A stretch of DNA of 64,000 nt, from contig NZ_MWLM01000062.1 in the NCBI RefSeq assembly GCF_002198665.1, positions 1 to 64,000 on the forward strand. The letters run 5' to 3'. Of the stretch, positions 36,797 through 45,717 are shown one piece after another (the stretch's first letter is position 1; every line of letters begins with the position of its first letter). A program made the position numbers and the translations under genes. A model generated the notes under the pieces. It was not told the DNA's origin. It did not search any database and saw only the letters and a program-made list of their open reading frames with translations. The DNA is from Novosphingobium sp. B 225 (lineage in GTDB: Bacteria; Pseudomonadota; Alphaproteobacteria; Sphingomonadales; Sphingomonadaceae).

Positions 36797-38698
36797 CTAC
36801 CCCATTTTCTTCAGGAGCCAGGCAAAGTTGCCGCCCCCGCGCGAGACCAGCCCCTGGAGCACCAGTTGCTGGACCGGCTGCGGGCGGCCTTGCCCATCGG
36901 CCCAGATGCTTTCTTCCAGAACGATCTGCCCGCCGCCCGAACGGAATTGCCACAGGCTGCCATCAGGCAGTGCCAGGCCCGCGCCTTGCCCGTCTTCGGA
37001 CAGGCGGACATCGATCCCCGCGCCCAGATGGAACCGGATCGCAAAGCCGACTTTGCCGTTCTTGGCCTTGCGCCCGCCCGGCACCAGCAGATCCTCACCG
37101 CGCAGTTCGGTGCCATCATCGCGCAGGATCAGGATCCGGCGGTGAGTCAGGCCATAGCGCGCCTCATAGCCGTTATGGCTAGCTTCAAGCCGGGTTGCCC
37201 CGGTGCCCTTGTCGCTGGTCAGGGTGCGGCGATCGATCTCCACTTCGGATACGCCGGTGCCGATTGCGCCGTTGATCAGCACGGCGGTGGAATTGGCATC
37301 ATCCAGCACCAGCGTGGAATGCGCCGCCGTGGCGCGCAAGCCTTGTTCAAGCCGCACCGGCATCAGCCCGCCAGCACAGCCCGAACCCCCGCAGTTAACT
37401 ACCAGACGGTGGCCGCCATGGCTGAATTCAAACGCAAGCGTAGAGGCGCAGCCGGTTCGCGCATGCTTGGCCAGCGGCGGCGGAGCGGCATCGAACTGCA
37501 GGATCGACTGCTTGGCCACTACGCGCTGATAGCCCCATTGGCGGACATCGCGGAGCGGGCGGGTGCGCACGCCGCTCGCCTCGATCAGCGCGGCAAGCTC
37601 GTCCCCGTCGATCGCCCAGGCTCCTTGCCAGCTGCCCAGCGAGCCATCGCCGTGCGTCAGTGCCAGCAGTGGCGGGACCAGCATGGTAAGGATTGCATCG
37701 AGCGCTTCGGGAGGATCGAGCCGCAGGGCGTGATAGCAGGCGCGCAGCTTGATGATCAGGCCGATCACTTCGATCTGGCCGAGCGGGCTGCGTGACAGCA
37801 CGCCGCCATCATCGCCCACCAGTTCACCCAGGGCCTTGATCAGCCCGGCTTCGCCAAACAGGCGGCGCGCCTTGCCATCGGGCAGCAACAGGCCTGCCGC
37901 GACAATTCCGCACCAACCCGCAACTTGCGCCAGCAGGTCTTCGGCGCGGGACACATTCTTGTCGAGCCAGCGCGCGGTTTCCTCCAGCGCGCCCAGCACC
38001 CGGGCGCGGTGGGCCTTGTCCGGCCCGGACAGGATCAGCGGGGCATGGACCAGCCAGTTGAGTTCGCGCGCACCGGCATTGGCCAGTGACCAGGCCGGGC
38101 CCTTGCCAGGTTTGCCGGGAACCTTGGGATTGGCGGCCAGCCAGGCCCCCAGCACCCGTTCCGCCACCGGGACGGCCTGTTCGCGCGCGGCGCAGGCTTC
38201 CAGATCGGCAAGCCAGGCGAACGAATGAACCGCGCGCTCCAGCGGCGGTGCCATCCGTGCCACGCCGCCGAAATCGATCTGGGCGATCGGAGCCTTGACC
38301 CCGTGAACCAGGAAATGTCCGGCACGCAGCGCTGTTCCGGCGACGCGCGATCCGGGCAAGGGGTTCTGCACCGTGGCCAGCAGGCGCGGCTTGCCGGGCT
38401 TGCGGAACGGGCTCGACAGGGTGGAGCCGGGGATCCCCAGCCGATAGGCAAAGCGCAGCAGGCGCTCACCCGCGCCAAGGCTGGGCGGGGCAAAGTCAGC
38501 CAGGGCCAGCGCGCGGCCCGGTTCAACCAGTTCGCCGGTTGGCGGCGGCGCGCCGCCCTCACCCGCAACTGCGGCGCCATTGCTCACCAGCAGCTCCTCA
38601 TTGCCTGCACCCAAAGGTACCGCCATGTCCGCCCCGGCGCCAGTTGGCACCGTATCCGCCGACGCATCGCCGCGCGCGGAGATGAGCGCATCGGCCAT
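36797..38698 (-). CDS. heparinase II/III-family protein
   Basis: This 633-residue protein has an N-terminal alpha/alpha-toroid (about 80-330) and a C-terminal beta-domain with the heparinase II/III motif EASHNGYEARYGLTHRR followed by GEDLL. Members cleave uronate-containing polysaccharides, but the sphingomonad proteins in this rpe-purH setting are uncharacterised. No signal peptide is visible, so cytoplasmic or inner-membrane action on an intermediate is possible. The N-terminal 75 residues look low-complexity. It is closely spaced with both neighbours. Confidence 0.85.
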   Translation of the reverse strand: MADALISARGDASADTVPTGAGADMAVPLGAGNEELLVSNGAAVAGEGGAPPPTGELVEPGRALALADFAPPSLGAGERLLRFAYRLGIPGSTLSSPFRKPGKPRLLATVQNPLPGSRVAGTALRAGHFLVHGVKAPIAQIDFGGVARMAPPLERAVHSFAWLADLEACAAREQAVPVAERVLGAWLAANPKVPGKPGKGPAWSLANAGARELNWLVHAPLILSGPDKAHRARVLGALEETARWLDKNVSRAEDLLAQVAGWCGIVAAGLLLPDGKARRLFGEAGLIKALGELVGDDGGVLSRSPLGQIEVIGLIIKLRACYHALRLDPPEALDAILTMLVPPLLALTHGDGSLGSWQGAWAIDGDELAALIEASGVRTRPLRDVRQWGYQRVVAKQSILQFDAAPPPLAKHARTGCASTLAFEFSHGGHRLVVNCGGSGCAGGLMPVRLEQGLRATAAHSTLVLDDANSTAVLINGAIGTGVSEVEIDRRTLTSDKGTGATRLEASHNGYEARYGLTHRRILILRDDGTELRGEDLLVPGGRKAKNGKVGFAIRFHLGAGIDVRLSEDGQGAGLALPDGSLWQFRSGGGQIVLEESIWADGQGRPQPVQQLVLQGLVSRGGGNFAWLLKKMG

Positions 38699-38701
38699 GG
38701 C

Positions 38702-39364
38702 TCACCCCACCCCCTTGAGCGCGGCGATATTGGCGGCGTAACAATCCGGCCCGCCGCGGAAGGCAGCCGTCCCGGCCACCAGCACATCGGCCCCGGCATC
38801 AACGCATTGCCGCGCGATAACGGCATCGACCCCGCCGTCCACTTCAAGCCGCACGTCCCGCCCGGTCTTGTCGATCGACTTGCGGATCGCCTCGATCTTG
38901 CGCAGCTGGCTGGAAATGAAGCTTTGCCCGCCAAACCCGGGATTGACGCTCATCACCAGCACCAGATCCACTTCCTCATAAAGGTAATCGAGCATCTTGG
39001 CGGGCGTGCCGGGGTTGAGCGAAACCCCGGCCTGCTTGCCCAGCGCCTTGATCGCCTGAACCGTGCGGTGCGCGTGCGGCCCGGCTTCGGGGTGGAAGGT
39101 GATGATATCCGCCCCGGCATCGGCGAAAGCCTGCAGATAGGGATCGACCGGGCTGATCATCAGGTGGACGTCAAACGGCTTGGTCGTGTGGGGGCGCAGC
39201 GCCTTTACCACCATCGGTCCGATCGTGAGGTTGGGAACGAAGTGCCCGTCCATCACATCAACATGGATCCAGTCCGCTCCGGCTGCGTCGATCGCGCGCA
39301 CTTCCTCGCCCAGCCGGGCAAAATCGGCGGAGAGGATCGAGGGCGAGATCAGCGGTGCAGCCAT
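38702..39364 (-). CDS. rpe: ribulose-phosphate 3-epimerase
   Basis: This 220-residue TIM barrel interconverts ribulose 5-phosphate and xylulose 5-phosphate. [14 protein letters not shown] at the start, [37 protein letters not shown] and VDGGV are all family motifs with the metal-binding His and Asp residues. It is the first gene of rpe-heparinase-purH and divergent from the RiPP operon. Confidence 0.97.
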
Positions 39365-39526
39365 GGCGCGAAAATATGCTCCCTTGATCGGCGCTTACCT
39401 ACCGTATCTGGGGGCAACAAGGCGCAGAGCGGCGGTTTTCCACACTGCATCTCGTTCAGGGCAAACACTTGGCCGCGCCAGCGATTCATCCTGCCGCGCG
39501 ATTGACCTTGGCGCCGCTTGGCGGCA

Positions 39527-40429
39527 ATGCCGCTGGCCATGGCCAATCCTGCCCCGCCCCACCCTGCGCTGGCCCTGCTGAAGCGCGAAACCCGCCTGTG
39601 CGAAGGGGCGGTTCCGCTGGGGCTGGACGGCGGGGAAATCAGGCCGGACAGCTGGCAGCTGGATGGCGAGCGCTTCCTGTTCCGGTCGGCCACGGGGCTG
39701 GGTTATCTCTATGTCCGGGGCGAGGGTATCATCGCACAGCGCCCGCCGGGCTGGGATCCGGACGAGGACAGCCTGATCCGCAATGGCAGTGTCTATGCGG
39801 CAGTCGCCTGCATCAACGGGCTCTATCCGATCCACGCATCGGCCGTGGCCTGGCAGGGCCGGGTCCATGCCTTCACCGGACCGTCAGGCGCGGGCAAGTC
39901 CACGCTGACGGCAGAGCTGACCCGGCGCGGTCTGCCGCTGTTCTGCGATGACACGCTGCTGCTCGACCTGACCCGGCCCGAAGCGCCACTCTGCCTGCCG
40001 GGGCACAAGCGGCTCAAGCTGTGGCCCGATGCCCTTGCGCTGACCGGTGCCAGCCCCACCGGCAAAATCGCGCAGCGGTTTGACAAATTCTATGCTGAGC
40101 CCGCCGGAGGCAGCATCAAGGACGTGCTGCCACTGGCCAGCCTGACTTTCCTTGAGGAAGGTGAGCACGCCCGGATCGAGCCGCTGCACGGTGCGGAAAA
40201 GCTGCTGCGGCTGCAGGACGATCACTATACCACGGACCTGTTCCTGGCCGCTTCGCAGCCCGACCGGGCCGGACGTTTCGCCCAATTGGCCGCGCTGGCC
40301 CGCGGCCTCTCCCTGTCACGCTTCATCCGCCCGCGCGATACTGCGCGCTTTGCAGTGGACGCCGGGGTGGCGGAACGGCATGTGAAGCAGCACCCAACCG
40401 TCCAGCCAGACAGCGAGCCAGGCCCATGA
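39527..40429 (+). CDS. HPr-kinase-like RiPP tailoring kinase
   Basis: This roughly 300-residue protein resembles HPr kinase/phosphorylase homologues found in lasso-peptide operons. Counted from a possible TTG start at 39518 it has IHASAV near 105-110, Walker A GPSGAGKST (121-129) and FCDDTLLL (143-150). In the paeninodin system such a kinase phosphorylates the C-terminal Ser of the precursor. Here the precursor also ends in Ser, so the same role is the best inference. The start is uncertain: ATG 39527 and ATG 39539 lack a strong ribosome site. It opens the operon and overlaps the PqqD gene. Confidence 0.85.
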   Translation: MPLAMANPAPPHPALALLKRETRLCEGAVPLGLDGGEIRPDSWQLDGERFLFRSATGLGYLYVRGEGIIAQRPPGWDPDEDSLIRNGSVYAAVACINGLYPIHASAVAWQGRVHAFTGPSGAGKSTLTAELTRRGLPLFCDDTLLLDLTRPEAPLCLPGHKRLKLWPDALALTGASPTGKIAQRFDKFYAEPAGGSIKDVLPLASLTFLEEGEHARIEPLHGAEKLLRLQDDHYTTDLFLAASQPDRAGRFAQLAALARGLSLSRFIRPRDTARFAVDAGVAERHVKQHPTVQPDSEPGP

Positions 40430-40695
40430 CCCAGACTCTGCGCAAATGCCCCGATGCCTTTGCAGAAACCGAAATCGACGACGAAGTAGTACTGATGGAC
40501 CTGTCCAGCGGCGATTTCTTCTCGATCAAGGACAGCGGGCTGGAAATCTGGAACCTGCTGGATCAGGGGCTGGACCGGGCCAGCCTGCTGGCGCAGCTGG
40601 AACAGGCTTATGGCGTCCCCCGGGCTGAGCTTGCAGGCGATGTCGATGCCTTCCTTGATCAGGTCATGGCTGCCGGGTTTGTCACGGCTGGCTGA
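40426..40695 (+). CDS. PqqD-like RiPP recognition element (lasso B1)
   Basis: This 89-residue PqqD-family protein binds RiPP leader peptides. VVLMDLSSGDFFSIKDSGLEIWNLLD is the typical winged-helix core, and the C-terminal DVDAFLDQVMAAGFV fits. In lasso systems this B1 protein presents the leader to the B2 peptidase. It overlaps the kinase gene by ATGA, and its end overlaps the start region of the peptidase gene, so all are co-translated. Confidence 0.9.
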   Translation: MTQTLRKCPDAFAETEIDDEVVLMDLSSGDFFSIKDSGLEIWNLLDQGLDRASLLAQLEQAYGVPRAELAGDVDAFLDQVMAAGFVTAG

Positions 40696-41107
40696 AACCT
40701 GGCGGGCGCGGCTACGCACAGCAGAGGCCATGGCCGAACTGCTGCGGGCCCGCCGCCTGGTGCTGCGCATTCCGTTCGGCACCTGGCGTGACCGGCTGGG
40801 CCTGTCCGCCAATGCGCCGGCCCGTGACGCTACCGACCCCCAAGTCGCGGCCGCCTGGGCGCTGGCGCGGCACATCGACCGGGCAGCATGGCGCATGGGC
40901 GGTGAATGGCTGTGTCTGCCCCGCGCAGTAGCCTTGATCGCCATGCTGCGGCGGCGCGAAATTCCCTATGCCTTGCACATCGCCGCCCGCCCCGAAACCC
41001 AGCGCACCGGAACGGACGATCTCCACGCCTGGGTCGATGTCGGTCCGGTGCGGGTAATCGGCGACTTGCCCGGTGAATGGGCCGTGATTTTCCGGGCACA
41101 GGGTTGA
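40640..41107 (+). CDS. transglutaminase-like leader peptidase (lasso B2)
   Basis: This roughly 155-residue protein has the lasso B2 fold: a catalytic Cys92 in WLCLPRAVAL and His129 in DLHAWVDVG, as in the Cys-His-Asp leader peptidases. It cuts the leader from the precursor with help from the PqqD-like protein. The start is unclear; ATG 40640 overlaps the PqqD gene by 56 bases and 40610 or 40646 are alternatives. The first about 30 residues vary in the family and give no help. The precursor gene follows 136 bases later. Confidence 0.87.
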   Translation: MSMPSLIRSWLPGLSRLAETWRARLRTAEAMAELLRARRLVLRIPFGTWRDRLGLSANAPARDATDPQVAAAWALARHIDRAAWRMGGEWLCLPRAVALIAMLRRREIPYALHIAARPETQRTGTDDLHAWVDVGPVRVIGDLPGEWAVIFRAQG

Positions 41108-41149
41108 ACCCTGAATCGCGGTTTCTCGCGTTCAAGGCGCGCTTCGCAG

Positions 41150-41177
41150 TTGCAAAATAATTTCGAATCTGTAAAAC
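41150..41177 (+). promoter_or_regulatory. candidate promoter for the RiPP precursor gene
   Basis: TTGCAA (41150-41155), 16 bases and TAAAAC (41172-41177) form a moderate sigma70-type promoter. It lies 66 bases upstream of the precursor start, in the AT-richest part of this gap. An internal promoter would raise the precursor above its enzymes. Confidence 0.45.
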
Positions 41178-41243
41178 TACGGTCAAGAACGCTTAGCAAG
41201 GTGAGGTCGCGGCACCTTTCGGCAGAACTTTAGGAGTTTCGTT

Positions 41244-41387
41244 GTGACCAAGCAGACCAAGACCTGGACCAAGCCCGCCCTTACCCGCCTGGGCCAGATT
41301 GCCAATGTCGCAGGGACGCAGACCGGCACCTGCCAGGGCACCAATGGTGGCGGCAACTGCCCTGGTCCGGACGTCGGGTTCTCCTGA
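41244..41387 (+). CDS. lasso-type RiPP precursor peptide
   Basis: This 47-residue peptide starts at a GTG seven bases after AGGAG. Its leader has the lasso-type pattern W8xxP11xL13xxxG17, with Trp in place of the usual Tyr. The remainder is rich in Gly, Thr and Asn, has Cys30 and Cys39, and ends in Asp43-Val-Gly-Phe-Ser47. A plausible core begins near Gly24 or Thr27. In either case positions 7-9 of the core lack Asp or Glu; Gln31 would be position 8 from Gly24. Asp43 is the only acidic residue of the whole peptide. The product is thus not a canonical lasso. The C-terminal Ser suits the kinase. Confidence 0.85.
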   Translation: MTKQTKTWTKPALTRLGQIANVAGTQTGTCQGTNGGGNCPGPDVGFS

Positions 41388-41418
41388 TTATTGCGCGTCG
41401 GGGTTAGCGCTCCGGTAG

Positions 41419-41444
41419 CCCGGCCGGGCGATTTCCCGGTCGGG
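41419..41444 (+). terminator. hairpin between precursor and cyclase genes
   Basis: CCCGGCCGGG (41419-41428) pairs with CCCGGTCGGG (41435-41444): ten pairs including one G-U, with a six-base loop CGATTT, followed by ATTTAA. It may end part of the transcription after the precursor or protect the 3-prime end of its RNA, giving more precursor than enzyme. The next gene starts 14 bases later. Confidence 0.55.
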
Positions 41445-41457
41445 ATTTAAGGCCATC

Positions 41458-43359
41458 ATGTTCTTTTTTGCGCGCAGAGCGGGCAGCGATTGTGAATTCG
41501 CGCCCGAACGGGCGGCGCAATCACTCGGCCTGTTTGCAGGGCACGCAGCCGATTCCTGCCGGATCGGGCAGGACTACTTCGCAGAACTCCCCTCACCGCG
41601 CGCATCGGCGCGAAAGGGCTGGCGGGTTGCCCGCACACCGGCAGGAACCGCAGTGTTGCTGGCCGGCATTATCGACAATCTGACCGAACTGGCCGCGGAA
41701 CTTGGCTGCGAACGCACAGCTGAGGCGGTGTTCGGTGCTGCGGTTGAACGCTGGGGCGACAATGCCGACCGCCGGATCGTGGGCGAATATTCCGCGCTGG
41801 CAGTCTTGCCCGATGGCCGGGTGCGGATGTCACGCAGTCCCTGGTCCGGATTGCCGCTGTTTTTCCACTACAGCCCCGGCGGGATACTGGCCTGCCCGAT
41901 CCCGCGTCCGTTGTTCGCGGCCGGACTGCCCAAGCGGCTCAGACCCGGCCTGATCGAGGACATGCTGGCTTTCGAGCGGGTTGACGATGCCCGGTCCCGG
42001 TTTGAAGGAATCGAACAGGTGCGCGGCGGCACCGTCGTGACCTTTGCCGGGGAACAACGCTCTACCTTCCAGTTCTATGACGCCGCCGCGATCAGCCCGG
42101 TCCGGTTTCGCCGCGACGCAGATTATGTCGAGGCTGCGACGGCAATGCTGGGCGAAGCGGTGGGCAAATGCCTCGCGCTGGCCACCAAACCTGCCGTAAC
42201 GCTGTCTGGCGGGCTCGATTCCTCCCTGGTCTGCGACGAAATGCTGCGCCAGATGCCCGCAGGGAAACGGCTGACCAGCATTACATTCGTTCCGCACCAG
42301 GAATGGGGCGGCGAAGTGATGCCCCATCTGTTCGGGGACGATGGCCCCTATGTCCGGCGTTTCGCCGAAAGGCGGGAAGGGCTCGACCCGATCTTCGTCG
42401 ACAATGCCGATCTGGGGCCCGATAGCTTCGCGGCGGAACGCATGCTGGCGTCCGATAGCGAGGTTATCAACCTGGGCATCAGCTTCGTCCATTTCGGCCT
42501 GAACCAGGCCGCCCGCGATGCCGGGTGCGATTGGCTGTTCTGGGGCAATTTGGGCAATCAGACGATCAGCGGCGAAGCCCCCTGGGCCCCGGCAACCCTG
42601 TTCAGGCAGCTGCAGTGGGGCGAAGTCTGGCGGCTGGCTCGCACCCGGCTGGATGACACCCGGCCGATGTGGCGGCGCTTCATCGCCACCGGGCTGATGC
42701 CCAACCTGCCGGCAGCCTGGCGCGAGAGAATCCGCGACCTGACCCCGGGAACCGCGCGGCCGCAGATCTTTGCCAACCCCTACCTCAAGCCCGGCAGCGC
42801 GATTGGCGAAAAGCTGGCGGAGCGCCATCTGGCCCGCAGCGCCTTCAGCATCGATTTCCTCCATTCGCGCGAACGGTTTGCCGAAACCCTGTTCGATTCG
42901 ATGGCGATCGGCGGCGAAACGGCCCTGGGCATGCAGCAGGTATTCGGCCTGCGCGGCCGTGATGTGCTGGCCTATCGTCCGCTGATCGAACTGTGTCTGG
43001 GCATGCCCGACAACCAGTTCGTGCGGGGCGGAGAACGGCGCCTGCTGGCCCGCCGCATGGCGGTGGGCAGACTGCCAGAAGCGCAACGCACCGAACGGCG
43101 GCACGGCGATCATGTGCCCGATTGGCATGTCCGGATGACCCGCCAGTTGCCCCAGCTGCGCCGCGAGATCGAGCGGGTGGCCGATCACCCCGAACTGGGG
43201 GCGCTGGTCGATACCGACAGCATGCTGCGCGATCTTGATAACTGGCCCGACACGTCGCCGGCCGACCTTGCCACGATCACCCGGCTGCGATTCGCCATTC
43301 CGGCGGTTTTCGCGGTGCGGCGCTATGCCGACTACATTTCCGGGCGAAATGCCGCATGA
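41458..43359 (+). CDS. asparagine-synthetase-like cyclase (lasso C)
   Basis: This 633-residue protein has an N-terminal glutaminase-like domain and a C-terminal ATP-pyrophosphatase domain with SGGLDSS at 250-256. The N-terminus (MFFFARRAG) lacks the catalytic Cys2 of true asparagine synthetases, as in lasso cyclases, which adenylate a side-chain carboxylate and let the N-terminus attack it. In this operon it should macrocyclise or otherwise activate the precursor. Since the precursor has no Asp or Glu at 7-9, the activated residue is unclear. It overlaps the exporter gene. Confidence 0.9.
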   Translation: MFFFARRAGSDCEFAPERAAQSLGLFAGHAADSCRIGQDYFAELPSPRASARKGWRVARTPAGTAVLLAGIIDNLTELAAELGCERTAEAVFGAAVERWGDNADRRIVGEYSALAVLPDGRVRMSRSPWSGLPLFFHYSPGGILACPIPRPLFAAGLPKRLRPGLIEDMLAFERVDDARSRFEGIEQVRGGTVVTFAGEQRSTFQFYDAAAISPVRFRRDADYVEAATAMLGEAVGKCLALATKPAVTLSGGLDSSLVCDEMLRQMPAGKRLTSITFVPHQEWGGEVMPHLFGDDGPYVRRFAERREGLDPIFVDNADLGPDSFAAERMLASDSEVINLGISFVHFGLNQAARDAGCDWLFWGNLGNQTISGEAPWAPATLFRQLQWGEVWRLARTRLDDTRPMWRRFIATGLMPNLPAAWRERIRDLTPGTARPQIFANPYLKPGSAIGEKLAERHLARSAFSIDFLHSRERFAETLFDSMAIGGETALGMQQVFGLRGRDVLAYRPLIELCLGMPDNQFVRGGERRLLARRMAVGRLPEAQRTERRHGDHVPDWHVRMTRQLPQLRREIERVADHPELGALVDTDSMLRDLDNWPDTSPADLATITRLRFAIPAVFAVRRYADYISGRNAA

Positions 43360-45032
43360 GCAACCGGGTGCGCCTGTTCGAACCTGCCCTGCATGGTTGG
43401 AAGGCCGCGCGGGTCGCCGCACTGATGGTGCTGGGCGCCGTGACCGAGGGCCTGGGCCTGGTCCTGCTGGTGCCCTTGCTGGCGATCCTGGGGCCGGGGC
43501 CCGCGGGGGGGCTGGCCCAATGGCTGGGAACGATCGGCATTCCGCTGACGCTGGGGCCGGTGCTGGGCCTGTTCCTTGCGCTGATCCTGCTGCGGGTGCT
43601 GATCAATCATGCCCGGCAGATGGCCGCGATGCAGCTGGAACTGGCGCTGGTCGGCCGCTTGCGATCAAGGGCCTGGCAGGCGTTGCTGCTGTGTGACTGG
43701 CGCGTTGCGATGGGGTTGAGCCGGGGCAGGGCAACCAACATTCTGGCGGGTCAGGTCAATCAGGCCGGATACATCGTCAATCAGGCCCTGACCGCGCTGG
43801 CAACCTTCATGACCCTGCTGGGGGTTGGTCTGGCGGCGCTGGCGATTTCATGGCGGCTGGCCCTGGCCGGCCTGATCGGGGGGGCGCTGGTGCTGCTCGC
43901 CTACCGCGGCTTGCGCCGTCGCGCCGCACGGCTGGGTGAGAGCATGAGCCAGACCTATGGCCGGGTCCTCACCCGGCTGGACGAAGGGCTGCAATCCCTG
44001 CGCGTGATCAAGAGCCTGGGGAGCGAGGCCCGCGCCATCGCTGAGCTGAACGCTGACTTCGCCGGGCTGGAAGCCGGGCAGATCGAGTTTCAGCGCGGGC
44101 TGAGCACCAGCCGGGCGATCTTGCAGCTGGGCGGAGCCATGACACTGGCCGCGCTGGTCTGGGTCGCGGTGGAACGCTGGCACATGGCGATGTCCGCCCT
44201 GCTGCCGATGATCGCCCTGTTCGCGCGGAGCCTGCCACTGCTGGAAGCCTTGCAGCAATCGCTGCTGGTCTGGGCCAATGGCCGCCCGGCGATCAACCAG
44301 GCGCTTGACCTGATTGGGCAGGCAGAGGCGGCGCGGGAACCCGATGCGGATCATGTTGCCCCGCCGCAACTGCGATCGGCGATCAGTCTGGATGGCGTCG
44401 GCCTGCATTTCACCGGGCAGAACGAGGCCGCACTGACCGGGATCAACCTGAGCCTGCCGGCGGGCAGCATGACCGCGCTGATCGGCCCGTCGGGCGCAGG
44501 CAAGAGCACTCTGGCAGATCTGCTTGGCGGGCTGCTTTCACCCGATACGGGCACGATCGCGGTTGACGGTCAGGACCTGGATCCGGTGCTGCGCCGCGCC
44601 TGGCGCAGCCGGGTCGCTTATGTTCAGCAAGACCCGGTGCTGCTGACCGCGACGGTGCGCGACAACCTGCTCTGGGCCGCGCCCACAGCGGACAATGCCC
44701 GGCTGGAGGCCGCGCTGCGCGATGCGGCGGCCGACTTTGTCCTGGCGCTGCCACAGGGCCTCGACACCATGCTGGGCGATGGCGGGCGGCGGCTGTCGGG
44801 CGGAGAGCGCCAGCGCCTGATGCTGGCCCGCGCGCTGCTGCGCGATCCGGCCCTGCTGATTCTGGACGAAGCCACCAGCGCGCTTGATGCGGCGAACGAA
44901 GCGCTGATCGCGCAGGCCATCGCGCGGCTGAAGGGGCGCCTGACGATCCTCATCATCGGCCATCATGGCGCGCTGGCCGCGCTGGCTGACCGGCAGGTGT
45001 GCCTTGATGCGGGGCGAATTTCGGGTAGCTGA
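43356..45032 (+). CDS. ABC exporter for the RiPP product (lasso D)
   Basis: This 558-residue half transporter has about six helices (about 15-290) and then an ATPase domain. Walker A GPSGAGKST, signature LSGGERQR, Walker B LLILDEATSALD and the switch HH are present. No C39 peptidase domain is seen, as expected since the B2 protein cuts the leader. It probably secretes the mature peptide and confers immunity. It overlaps the cyclase gene by ATGA and closes the operon. Confidence 0.92.
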   Translation: MSNRVRLFEPALHGWKAARVAALMVLGAVTEGLGLVLLVPLLAILGPGPAGGLAQWLGTIGIPLTLGPVLGLFLALILLRVLINHARQMAAMQLELALVGRLRSRAWQALLLCDWRVAMGLSRGRATNILAGQVNQAGYIVNQALTALATFMTLLGVGLAALAISWRLALAGLIGGALVLLAYRGLRRRAARLGESMSQTYGRVLTRLDEGLQSLRVIKSLGSEARAIAELNADFAGLEAGQIEFQRGLSTSRAILQLGGAMTLAALVWVAVERWHMAMSALLPMIALFARSLPLLEALQQSLLVWANGRPAINQALDLIGQAEAAREPDADHVAPPQLRSAISLDGVGLHFTGQNEAALTGINLSLPAGSMTALIGPSGAGKSTLADLLGGLLSPDTGTIAVDGQDLDPVLRRAWRSRVAYVQQDPVLLTATVRDNLLWAAPTADNARLEAALRDAAADFVLALPQGLDTMLGDGGRRLSGGERQRLMLARALLRDPALLILDEATSALDAANEALIAQAIARLKGRLTILIIGHHGALAALADRQVCLDAGRISGS

Positions 45033-45198
45033 ACGCCGCAACTTGCGAGCGATCCCATTTCCGCCCAATTCAGACCATATTAAGCGCGCGAATCGCATTG
45101 AGGGGGCAAGAGGGCCGCAAGGCCGTGGGTGTTGGAGCCAGCAAGGGGGAGCGTCCCCGCAAGGTTTTGAGCCGTTTTCCAGACAGGATTGAGTGACG

Positions 45199-45717
45199 AT
45201 GATGAAGCTGAAATCCGCGCGCGCGCTGGTCGCGCTGACCGTCTCATTGGTGCTGGGCACCGCCGCGATTGGCACTGCTGCAGTCCATGCGGCCCCGCCC
45301 GCACTCGCCGCCGCGCCGCCGGCCGGCTGCACCGGGCCGGCCAGTCAGACCTGGCTCAACGTAGTGGTAGACGGCGTGCGCAGCGGCAATGGCCTGGTTG
45401 CCGTGACACTGTATGCCGATAATTCCAGCAAATTCCTGGTCCGCCATGGCTCGCTCTACGTCGGCCGGGTCGATGCCCAGTCCGGAACCACGCGGGCCTG
45501 CATCTTTGTGCCCAAACCGGGGGTCTATGCCCTGGCGCTGTACCATGACGAGAACGCCAACAAGGGCTTTGATCGCACCAGTCTGGGCCTGCCAGCCGAA
45601 GGCTTCGGTTTTTCGAACAACCCGGCGACACTGGCCGGGCTGCCGACCTTCAGTTCGGTGCGATTGAACGTGCCCAAGACCGGGCTGACCGCCCGGGTGC
45701 ACATGAAATATCCGTAA
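45199..45717 (+). CDS. secreted DUF2141-family protein
   Basis: This roughly 172-residue protein has a signal peptide (LVALTVSLVLGTAAIGTAAVHA) and a DUF2141 domain. WLNVVVDGVRSGNGLVAVTLYAD and YALALYHDENANKGFDRTSLGLPAEGFGFSN are the typical core. The family is periplasmic or surface-located and its function is unknown. It lies 166 bases after the RiPP exporter, so a link to that operon is possible but not proven. ATG 45199, ATG 45202 and GTG 45193 are possible starts. Confidence 0.88.
   Translation: MMKLKSARALVALTVSLVLGTAAIGTAAVHAAPPALAAAPPAGCTGPASQTWLNVVVDGVRSGNGLVAVTLYADNSSKFLVRHGSLYVGRVDAQSGTTRACIFVPKPGVYALALYHDENANKGFDRTSLGLPAEGFGFSNNPATLAGLPTFSSVRLNVPKTGLTARVHMKYP

Follow-up and report, generated by a model that had tools for sequence, protein, structure and literature searches.

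The window analysed here, a stretch of 64,000 nucleotides on contig NZ_MWLM01000062.1 of Novosphingobium sp. B 225, contains a lasso-type operon for a ribosomally synthesized and post-translationally modified peptide (RiPP), in which six plus-strand genes overlap or adjoin each other at 39518-45032 in the order K-B1-B2-A-C-D. This operon belongs to a real, conserved and non-canonical branch related to lasso peptides, which most likely works like a lasso peptide system and in which a glutamine at core position 8 (Gln8) is proposed to close the ring. An earlier reading of the letters alone, hereafter the sequence-only reading, had placed kinase, B1, B2, precursor, cyclase and exporter in one operon, and all these lasso-type parts were confirmed by Pfam and NCBIfam matches together with sequence motifs. 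The features are the following.

39518..40429, + strand: K, HprK-like peptide kinase with weak HprK_rel_A/B matches; TTG start in the open reading frame (ORF) list, an ATG at 39527 being possible too
40426..40695, + strand: B1, PqqD-like leader-binding protein (PF05402, 6.5e-17)
40610..41107, + strand: B2, leader peptidase, a transglutaminase-like Cys protease (PF13471; NF033537)
41244..41387, + strand: A, precursor of 47 aa, with predicted leader VTKQTKTWTKPALTRLGQIANVA and predicted core GTQTGTCQGTNGGGNCPGPDVGFS; GTG start, AGGAG upstream
41313..41384, + strand: predicted core, 24 residues after Val(-2)-Ala(-1), in the register of 77 aligned precursors
41334..41336, + strand: Gln31, equal to core Gln8, codon CAG, proposed ring-closing residue
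41370..41372, + strand: Asp43, equal to core Asp20, the sole acidic residue, not conserved
41382..41384, + strand: C-terminal Ser47, predicted kinase target (C-terminal Ser in 75/77 precursors, Thr in 2/77; paeninodin-type precedent in passages of PMC9266682)
41458..43359, + strand: C, asparagine-synthetase/beta-lactam-synthetase-like cyclase (PF00733), with the SGGLDS ATP loop at residues 250-255 and His552 where Asp-type cyclases have Gln
43356..45032, + strand: D, ABC exporter (ABC permease-ATPase; Pfam, NCBIfam)

The kinase matched HprK-type models weakly, reaching 30.8 bits with TIGR04352 (cut-off 200) and remaining below the TIGR04355 cut-off as well; its sequence contains the P-loop SGAGKST and a DD motif, and its homologues occupy the same position in related operons. 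B1 scored 35.8 bits with TIGR04353 (cut-off 35) and 5.1e-10, below cut-off, with NF033536, and in the NCBIfam scan it fell under the cut-offs of two lasso-specific B1 models. B2 was matched by PF13471 (Transglut_core3) and, at 52.6 bits, by NF033537 lasso_biosyn_B2, above the cut-off of 33; its true start probably lies inside the listed ORF. Across 57 aligned B2 rows, 100% have the Cys and 98% the His; the window B2 has both. The cyclase reached 59.5 bits with the lasso cyclase model NF033535, whose cut-off is 525, and no Pfam or NCBIfam model matched the precursor. The ATP-grasp family, a mark of graspetides, was found in none of the seven proteins scanned against Pfam and NCBIfam (for the exporter, among the best 25 of 195 NCBIfam families).

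The precursor and its conserved Gln8

The leader motif WTKPAL fits the pattern [Y/W]xxPxL, with Val at -2 in the register used, so that the sequence-only reading was right in calling the leader lasso-like. The core starts with GTQTGTC-Q8, in which Cys7-Gln8-Gly9 leave no Asp or Glu at positions 7-9, and Asp43 proved to be the single acidic residue of the 47-aa precursor, as that reading had also stated. Lasso peptides are described in passages of PMC10368454 as closing on Asp or Glu at 7-9. Since these are missing here, the precursor was not filed as a canonical lasso peptide, and some other residue must close the ring. A further precursor gene, which the sequence-only reading had considered, was not found when the strain's own genome was searched with the window precursor, a search that a very different precursor would escape; the other matches (E 0.13 and 0.28) lay inside frames of 188 and 532 aa.

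Relatives were sought by way of the cyclase. In a sample of 298 genomes of the family, 49 had a match at E <=1e-30; in one of 396 genomes of the order, searched with a 14-row profile at E <=1e-40, 70 did, all of the same family among the matches listed. At the level of the class, 13 of 385 sampled genomes matched at 1e-60, the window's own included. A contig scan of named genomes with a 7-row cyclase alignment left 79 loci, the closest of which belong to Novosphingobium, Croceicoccus, Parapontixanthobacter and relatives, with many from Qipengyuania lower down. Precursors were then searched for in 166 loci with a profile made from the first finds. Of 84 rows, seven were set aside, namely L117 and L076 (both Asp8), L120/L161 (Gln8), L176, L190 and L177 (weak matches of other clusters) and the second ORF of L123, and 77 distinct precursors were kept, including the window's own and L144, whose leader frame lacks the Trp and which was restored by hand. 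Found later, and outside the 77, were L101 (Gln8 by eye, with a shortened leader), L105 (Gln8) and the remaining Asp8 rows.

The 77 precursors aligned without gaps, showing W..P.L...G (L144 without the Trp), then D-V/I-A in most, then the core; position -2 was Val in 53 and Ile in 24. Homologues with the same leader occupy the corresponding position in scores of related operons, so the precursor is not a chance occurrence. The residue at core position 8 or 9 was Gln8 in 59, Glu8 in 6, Gln9 in 6, Asp9 in 3, Asn9 in 2 and Asn8 in 1, the latter within a run Asn6-Asn8. Position 7 was very variable (Thr 14, Asp 11, Asn 10, Gly 9, Ala 9, others), and within-core shuffling (2000 times) placed Gln at position 8 in a mean of 5.6 and a maximum of 14 precursors, against the 59 observed. 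The Gln8 codons were CAG in 47 and CAA in 12, each one base away from Glu. No Asp or Glu was present at 7-9 in 54/77 precursors, the window's included, and the whole core was free of acidic residues in 49/77, as it was in the nearest relatives L087, L034, L123 and L035.

Clusters with more distant cyclases supplied the comparison for this position. Counted from Val/Ile(-2), Asp8 was read by eye in 11 of their precursors (L068, L071, L073, L076, L077, L080, L088, L111, L113, L115, L117), all but L073 included in a fixed-offset alignment, and L112 has Asp9. Measured from the Trp, the leaders of these Asp8 sisters exceed those of the Gln8 clade by one residue, for which reason the register rests on Val/Ile(-2) and not on the Trp. 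Three genomes that bear a Gln8 cluster also have a second cyclase, adjoined by the Asp9 precursors L067, L069 and L072, and precursors such as GGGSQVTE and SGTGSHTD, their core start placed by eye, occur at loci from other families of the class. In the register of the predicted core start, the window Gln8 is at the position of the ring-closing acid in the sister clusters. Among the options that the sequence-only reading had left, the use of another residue by the cyclase is therefore favoured by the relatives, which conserve Gln8 where their sisters have Asp8.

Some cores have features of their own. Two Cys occur in four Novosphingobium-type cores (window, L034, L035 and L087), and Cys makes up 0.6% of the residues in the other cores; in the window and L087, Cys7 lies in the putative ring and Cys16 or Cys15, respectively, in the tail, an arrangement that points in both to a possible ring-tail disulfide, which in the window member would be Cys7-Cys16. 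L065 carries a tandem precursor pair, each with Gln8, and a second precursor-like ORF (L123:2146-2460) lies downstream of the L123 cyclase, without Gln or Glu at core position 8.

Cyclase phylogeny and residue 552

A tree of 109 cyclases contained one clade of 73 rows (SH-aLRT 99), comprising 58 Gln8, 6 Glu8, 5 Gln9, 2 Asn9 and 1 Asn8 rows and one row without a precursor because of a cut contig. The six Glu8 precursors form two groups nested within the Gln8 clade. A neighbouring clade holds the Asp8/Asp9 rows, inside which L105 and L120 are nested; with the cores GTSGFNSQ and GTSGMNSQ, these two carry Gln8 and lack Asp or Glu at 7-9. The acid/amide trait required four changes on this tree, and its starred branches force four, which are read as two separate switches from acid to amide and two reversions to Glu. 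A single clade of all amide-type rows with their Glu8 kin, and with it one common origin of the amide type, was rejected (p-AU 0.0067) in a subset of 43 hand-picked rows under a simpler model, in which long branches may pull on the result. No precursor was assigned to 20 of the 109 cyclases; for one of these, L066, Asp8 was subsequently assigned by eye, and it was used in the count of acid/amide changes and in the column comparison.

The AlphaFold2 model of the window cyclase (mean pLDDT 88.8) matched the folds of TsnB9 (7ylz), beta-lactam synthetase (1jgt/1mbz) and asparagine synthetase (AsnB). Ser250 and Gly252-Ser255 of the ATP loop were each conserved in >93% of the 109 cyclases. In the N-terminal glutaminase-like domain, the strand expected to bear the nucleophile lacks Cys, SLGLF being aligned there by eye with CGI; lasso cyclases in general are not known to have a Cys there.

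About fifty columns separate the main clade from the Asp-type cyclases. The 16 Asp-type cyclases share 24 invariant columns, and just one of these, window residue 552, was replaced in both Gln lineages: it is Gln in 16/16 Asp-type and 17/18 unassigned rows, Asp in L105 and L120 (2/2), and, among 66 amide rows of the main clade, His in 58, Trp in 4, Thr in 2, Pro in 1 and Gln in 1. Trp344, for comparison, was lost in the main clade and retained in L105 and L120. A contact of residue 552 with the substrate is putative. A profile comparison to AsnB aligned window residues 64-278, short of 552. In a loose, ungapped by-eye reading from a shared LP motif, 552 would fall four positions beyond the Lys in the RQKEQF of E. 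coli AsnB, a Lys that we take, by counting, to be Lys449 and presumably a catalytic residue, the placement itself being weak.

Proposed ring closure on Gln8 and its alternatives

We consider it probable that the window encodes a lasso-type peptide with an N-terminal ring of eight residues, in which the Gln8 side chain serves for closure where Asp or Glu would usually do so, and the ring is probably closed by a chemistry so far undescribed for lasso peptides. This reading draws its direct support from the genes, the ATP loop, the Cys and His of B2, the conservation of Gln, Glu, Asn or Asp at positions 8-9 and the two separate switches from acid to amide; the cleavage site, the phosphorylation, the closure on Gln8, its chemistry and the threading of the product are predictions. 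In the proposed pathway, B1 would bind the WxxPxL leader, K would phosphorylate the C-terminal Ser, and B2 would cut after Val(-2)-Ala(-1), liberating Gly1. The ATP-dependent cyclase would activate the Gln8 carboxamide and couple it to Gly1, and D would export the product.

Simple carboxylate adenylation cannot close a ring on a carboxamide, which leaves three routes: amidine formation, transamidation, or deamidation followed by the usual reaction. In the favoured chemistry, ATP-dependent O-adenylation of the carboxamide would be followed by attack of the Gly1 amine, giving an amidine with loss of water; alternatively, a lactam would arise with loss of ammonia. The MH+ calculated for the predicted core is 2211.9030 in linear form, 2193.8924 as the amidine and 2194.8764 as the lactam, a disulfide lowering each value by 2.0157 and each phosphate raising it by 79.966. 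The retained ATP loop argues for an ATP step, and the persistence of Gln, although Glu is one base away, together with the absence from the operon of any deamidase-like gene, argues against prior deamidation. The precedent of the nitrile synthetase PesC, compared below, makes the amidine route chemically precedented. The complete proposal, a ring amidine made through adenylation of the Gln8 carboxamide by the cyclase, with water lost and the amide nitrogen kept, and with a switch from acid to Gln8 that happened twice, is put forward tentatively, as possible rather than probable.

The upstream genes vary among the relatives. In 73 loci with Gln-, Glu- or Asn-type precursors (excluding L105 and L120), K, B1 and B2 stand upstream in 31, as in the window, and B1 alone, without K or B2, in 33 (e.g., L055, L096 and L060); upstream positions were used for these counts, since the kinase profile also catches ABC ATPases and its K counts were left unused. 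The C-terminal Ser is kept also at loci without an upstream kinase gene. A PF13471 gene (B2) was present in 20/20 genomes searched, 15 of them with compact operons, and a K homologue in 19/19 (the same 15 included), with 27-35% identity in the compact ones, where it could be a general HprK-type kinase. In genomes with compact operons, B2 and K may thus act in trans, as their homologues lie elsewhere in the genome. Among the B2 genes of such genomes, those of L200, L202, L203 and L206 are solitary, with no K, B1, C or D match within the surrounding 6.2-6.5 kb. The strain's own genome holds a second RiPP-type cluster (L207, contig C17) with a kinase, B2, B1, an AsnB-like protein and a further ORF, which we take to be sulfotransferase-like.

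Several observations weigh against closure on Gln8 as proposed. First, His552 was retained in 5/5 readable Glu8 rows and Gln552 in L035 (Gln9), so that 552 is not a clean switch, and it is one of about fifty clade-marking columns, picked out only by its change in L105 and L120 too. Second, counting from the Trp as in the Asp8 sisters puts the Gln at position 7, and the outgroup loci L212, L213 and L219 show Glu or Asp at 8 only with the core start placed by eye, as the fixed offset does not place it. Third, the precursor-like ORF of L123, a row set aside from the 77, lacks Gln or Glu at 8. Finally, the ring product and the cleavage site are predicted from sequence, Gln8 could serve in recognition instead, and its deamidation to Glu before closure would leave an identical sequence pattern.

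This deamidation, by the cyclase, B2 or a host enzyme, followed by ordinary isopeptide lactam formation with a net loss of 17.03 Da, is unlikely, if the first alternative to be weighed. The occurrence of Glu8 in 6/77 precursors, nested in the Gln8 clade, indicates that close relatives accept a carboxylate. However, no operon protein had a deamidase-like match in Pfam or NCBIfam, 33/73 related loci lack K and B2 upstream as well, the glutaminase-like domain of the cyclase has no Cys at the expected nucleophile in the by-eye alignment on SLGLF, and Gln persists in 59/77 one base away from Glu. It is quite unlikely, too, that Gln8 is kept for recognition or stability and that the core either stays linear or is cyclised at another point, for instance by way of its two Cys. 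Although the ring is a predicted product and the two core Cys could cross-link alone, Cys is rare in other cores, and Gln8 stands at the Asp8 position of the sister clusters and, apart from the Asp9 rows, was exchanged in the 77 rows only for Glu or Asn or moved by one.

Gln side chains are the natural donors of transglutaminases and B2 is a Transglut_core3 protein, which would suit a direct transamidation, catalysed by the transglutaminase-fold B2 or by C, in which the Gly1 amine attacks Gln8, ammonia leaves and a lactam forms without ATP. Such a reaction is nevertheless improbable, given that the NF033537 score of B2 is that of an ordinary lasso leader peptidase, that the cyclase retains its ATP loop and that an otherwise invariant cyclase residue (552) was altered at both switches to Gln. 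A large ring on Asp43, the precursor's only acidic residue and the outcome for which the sequence-only reading had looked to a conserved Asp43 beside a variable stretch, is hardly credible and was rejected, because the nearest relatives (L087, L034, L123 and L035) have no counterpart of Asp43 and 49/77 related cores have no acidic residue at all.

Genomic site and comparison with known systems

The chromosomal position of the operon seems to be fixed. The minus-strand neighbours at 36797-39364, which we take from their sequences to be rpe and heparinase-like genes, were each matched in 67/73 related loci and both unmatched in all 15 Asp-type loci, and a DUF2141 gene at 45193-45717 had a match in 50/73. 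With the rpe and heparinase-like neighbours shared in this way, the locus looks old and vertically inherited. A plasmid origin was considered and rejected, since a search of PLSDB with 401 bases surrounding the precursor gave no match.

Compared with paeninodin-type lasso peptides, as described in passages of PMC9266682 and PMC5067487, the gene set A, B1, B2, C, K and D is common to both, as are a conserved C-terminal Ser and a kinase gene, although the kinase here is below the TIGR04352 and TIGR04355 cut-offs. The gene order differs, being K-B1-B2-A-C-D in the window, C-A-K-B1-B2-D in firmicutes and A-B1-B2-C-K-D in one proteobacterial cluster, and the known paeninodin-type rings use Asp or Glu, whereas the window family has Gln8. 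BsfA of Bradymonas, treated in the main text of PMC10368454, shares with the window the YxxPxL leader, Ile or Val at -2, the kinase, B1 and B2; it differs in the closure inferred there, Gly1-Asp8, and in being phosphorylated on Ser3. The same text reports Ile/Val(-2) precursors in Sphingomonadales and does not contain the words 'glutamine' or 'Gln', and its supplementary alignments may hold members of the window clade. A lasso peptide with a Gln acceptor was found neither among the open-access titles and abstract beginnings listed nor at 12 of 18 places of a 2026 review of interlocked peptides (PMC13352647). Metanodin, in passages of PMC12670498, has an unusual first residue, Asn1, yet an Asp acceptor.

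Precursors without Asp or Glu at 7-9 are likely to be missed or misinterpreted. An amidine ring would give lasso cyclases a new type of macrocycle linkage and the enzyme family a new reaction; a lactam would show in what way a carboxamide can act as acyl donor. The two separate switches to Gln8 and one covarying cyclase residue make the question of specificity directly testable. The best fold matches of the cyclase, beta-lactam synthetase (1jgt/1mbz) and the hydroxyamidotransferase TsnB9 (7ylz), share 15-17% identity with it and are not peptide cyclases. The nitrile synthetase PesC, according to passages of the preprint PMC13060819, converts a C-terminal amide to a nitrile and forms no ring, and it shares with the proposed reaction an AsnB-like RiPP enzyme, the ATP-dependent activation of a peptide amide and a proposed AMP-imidate.

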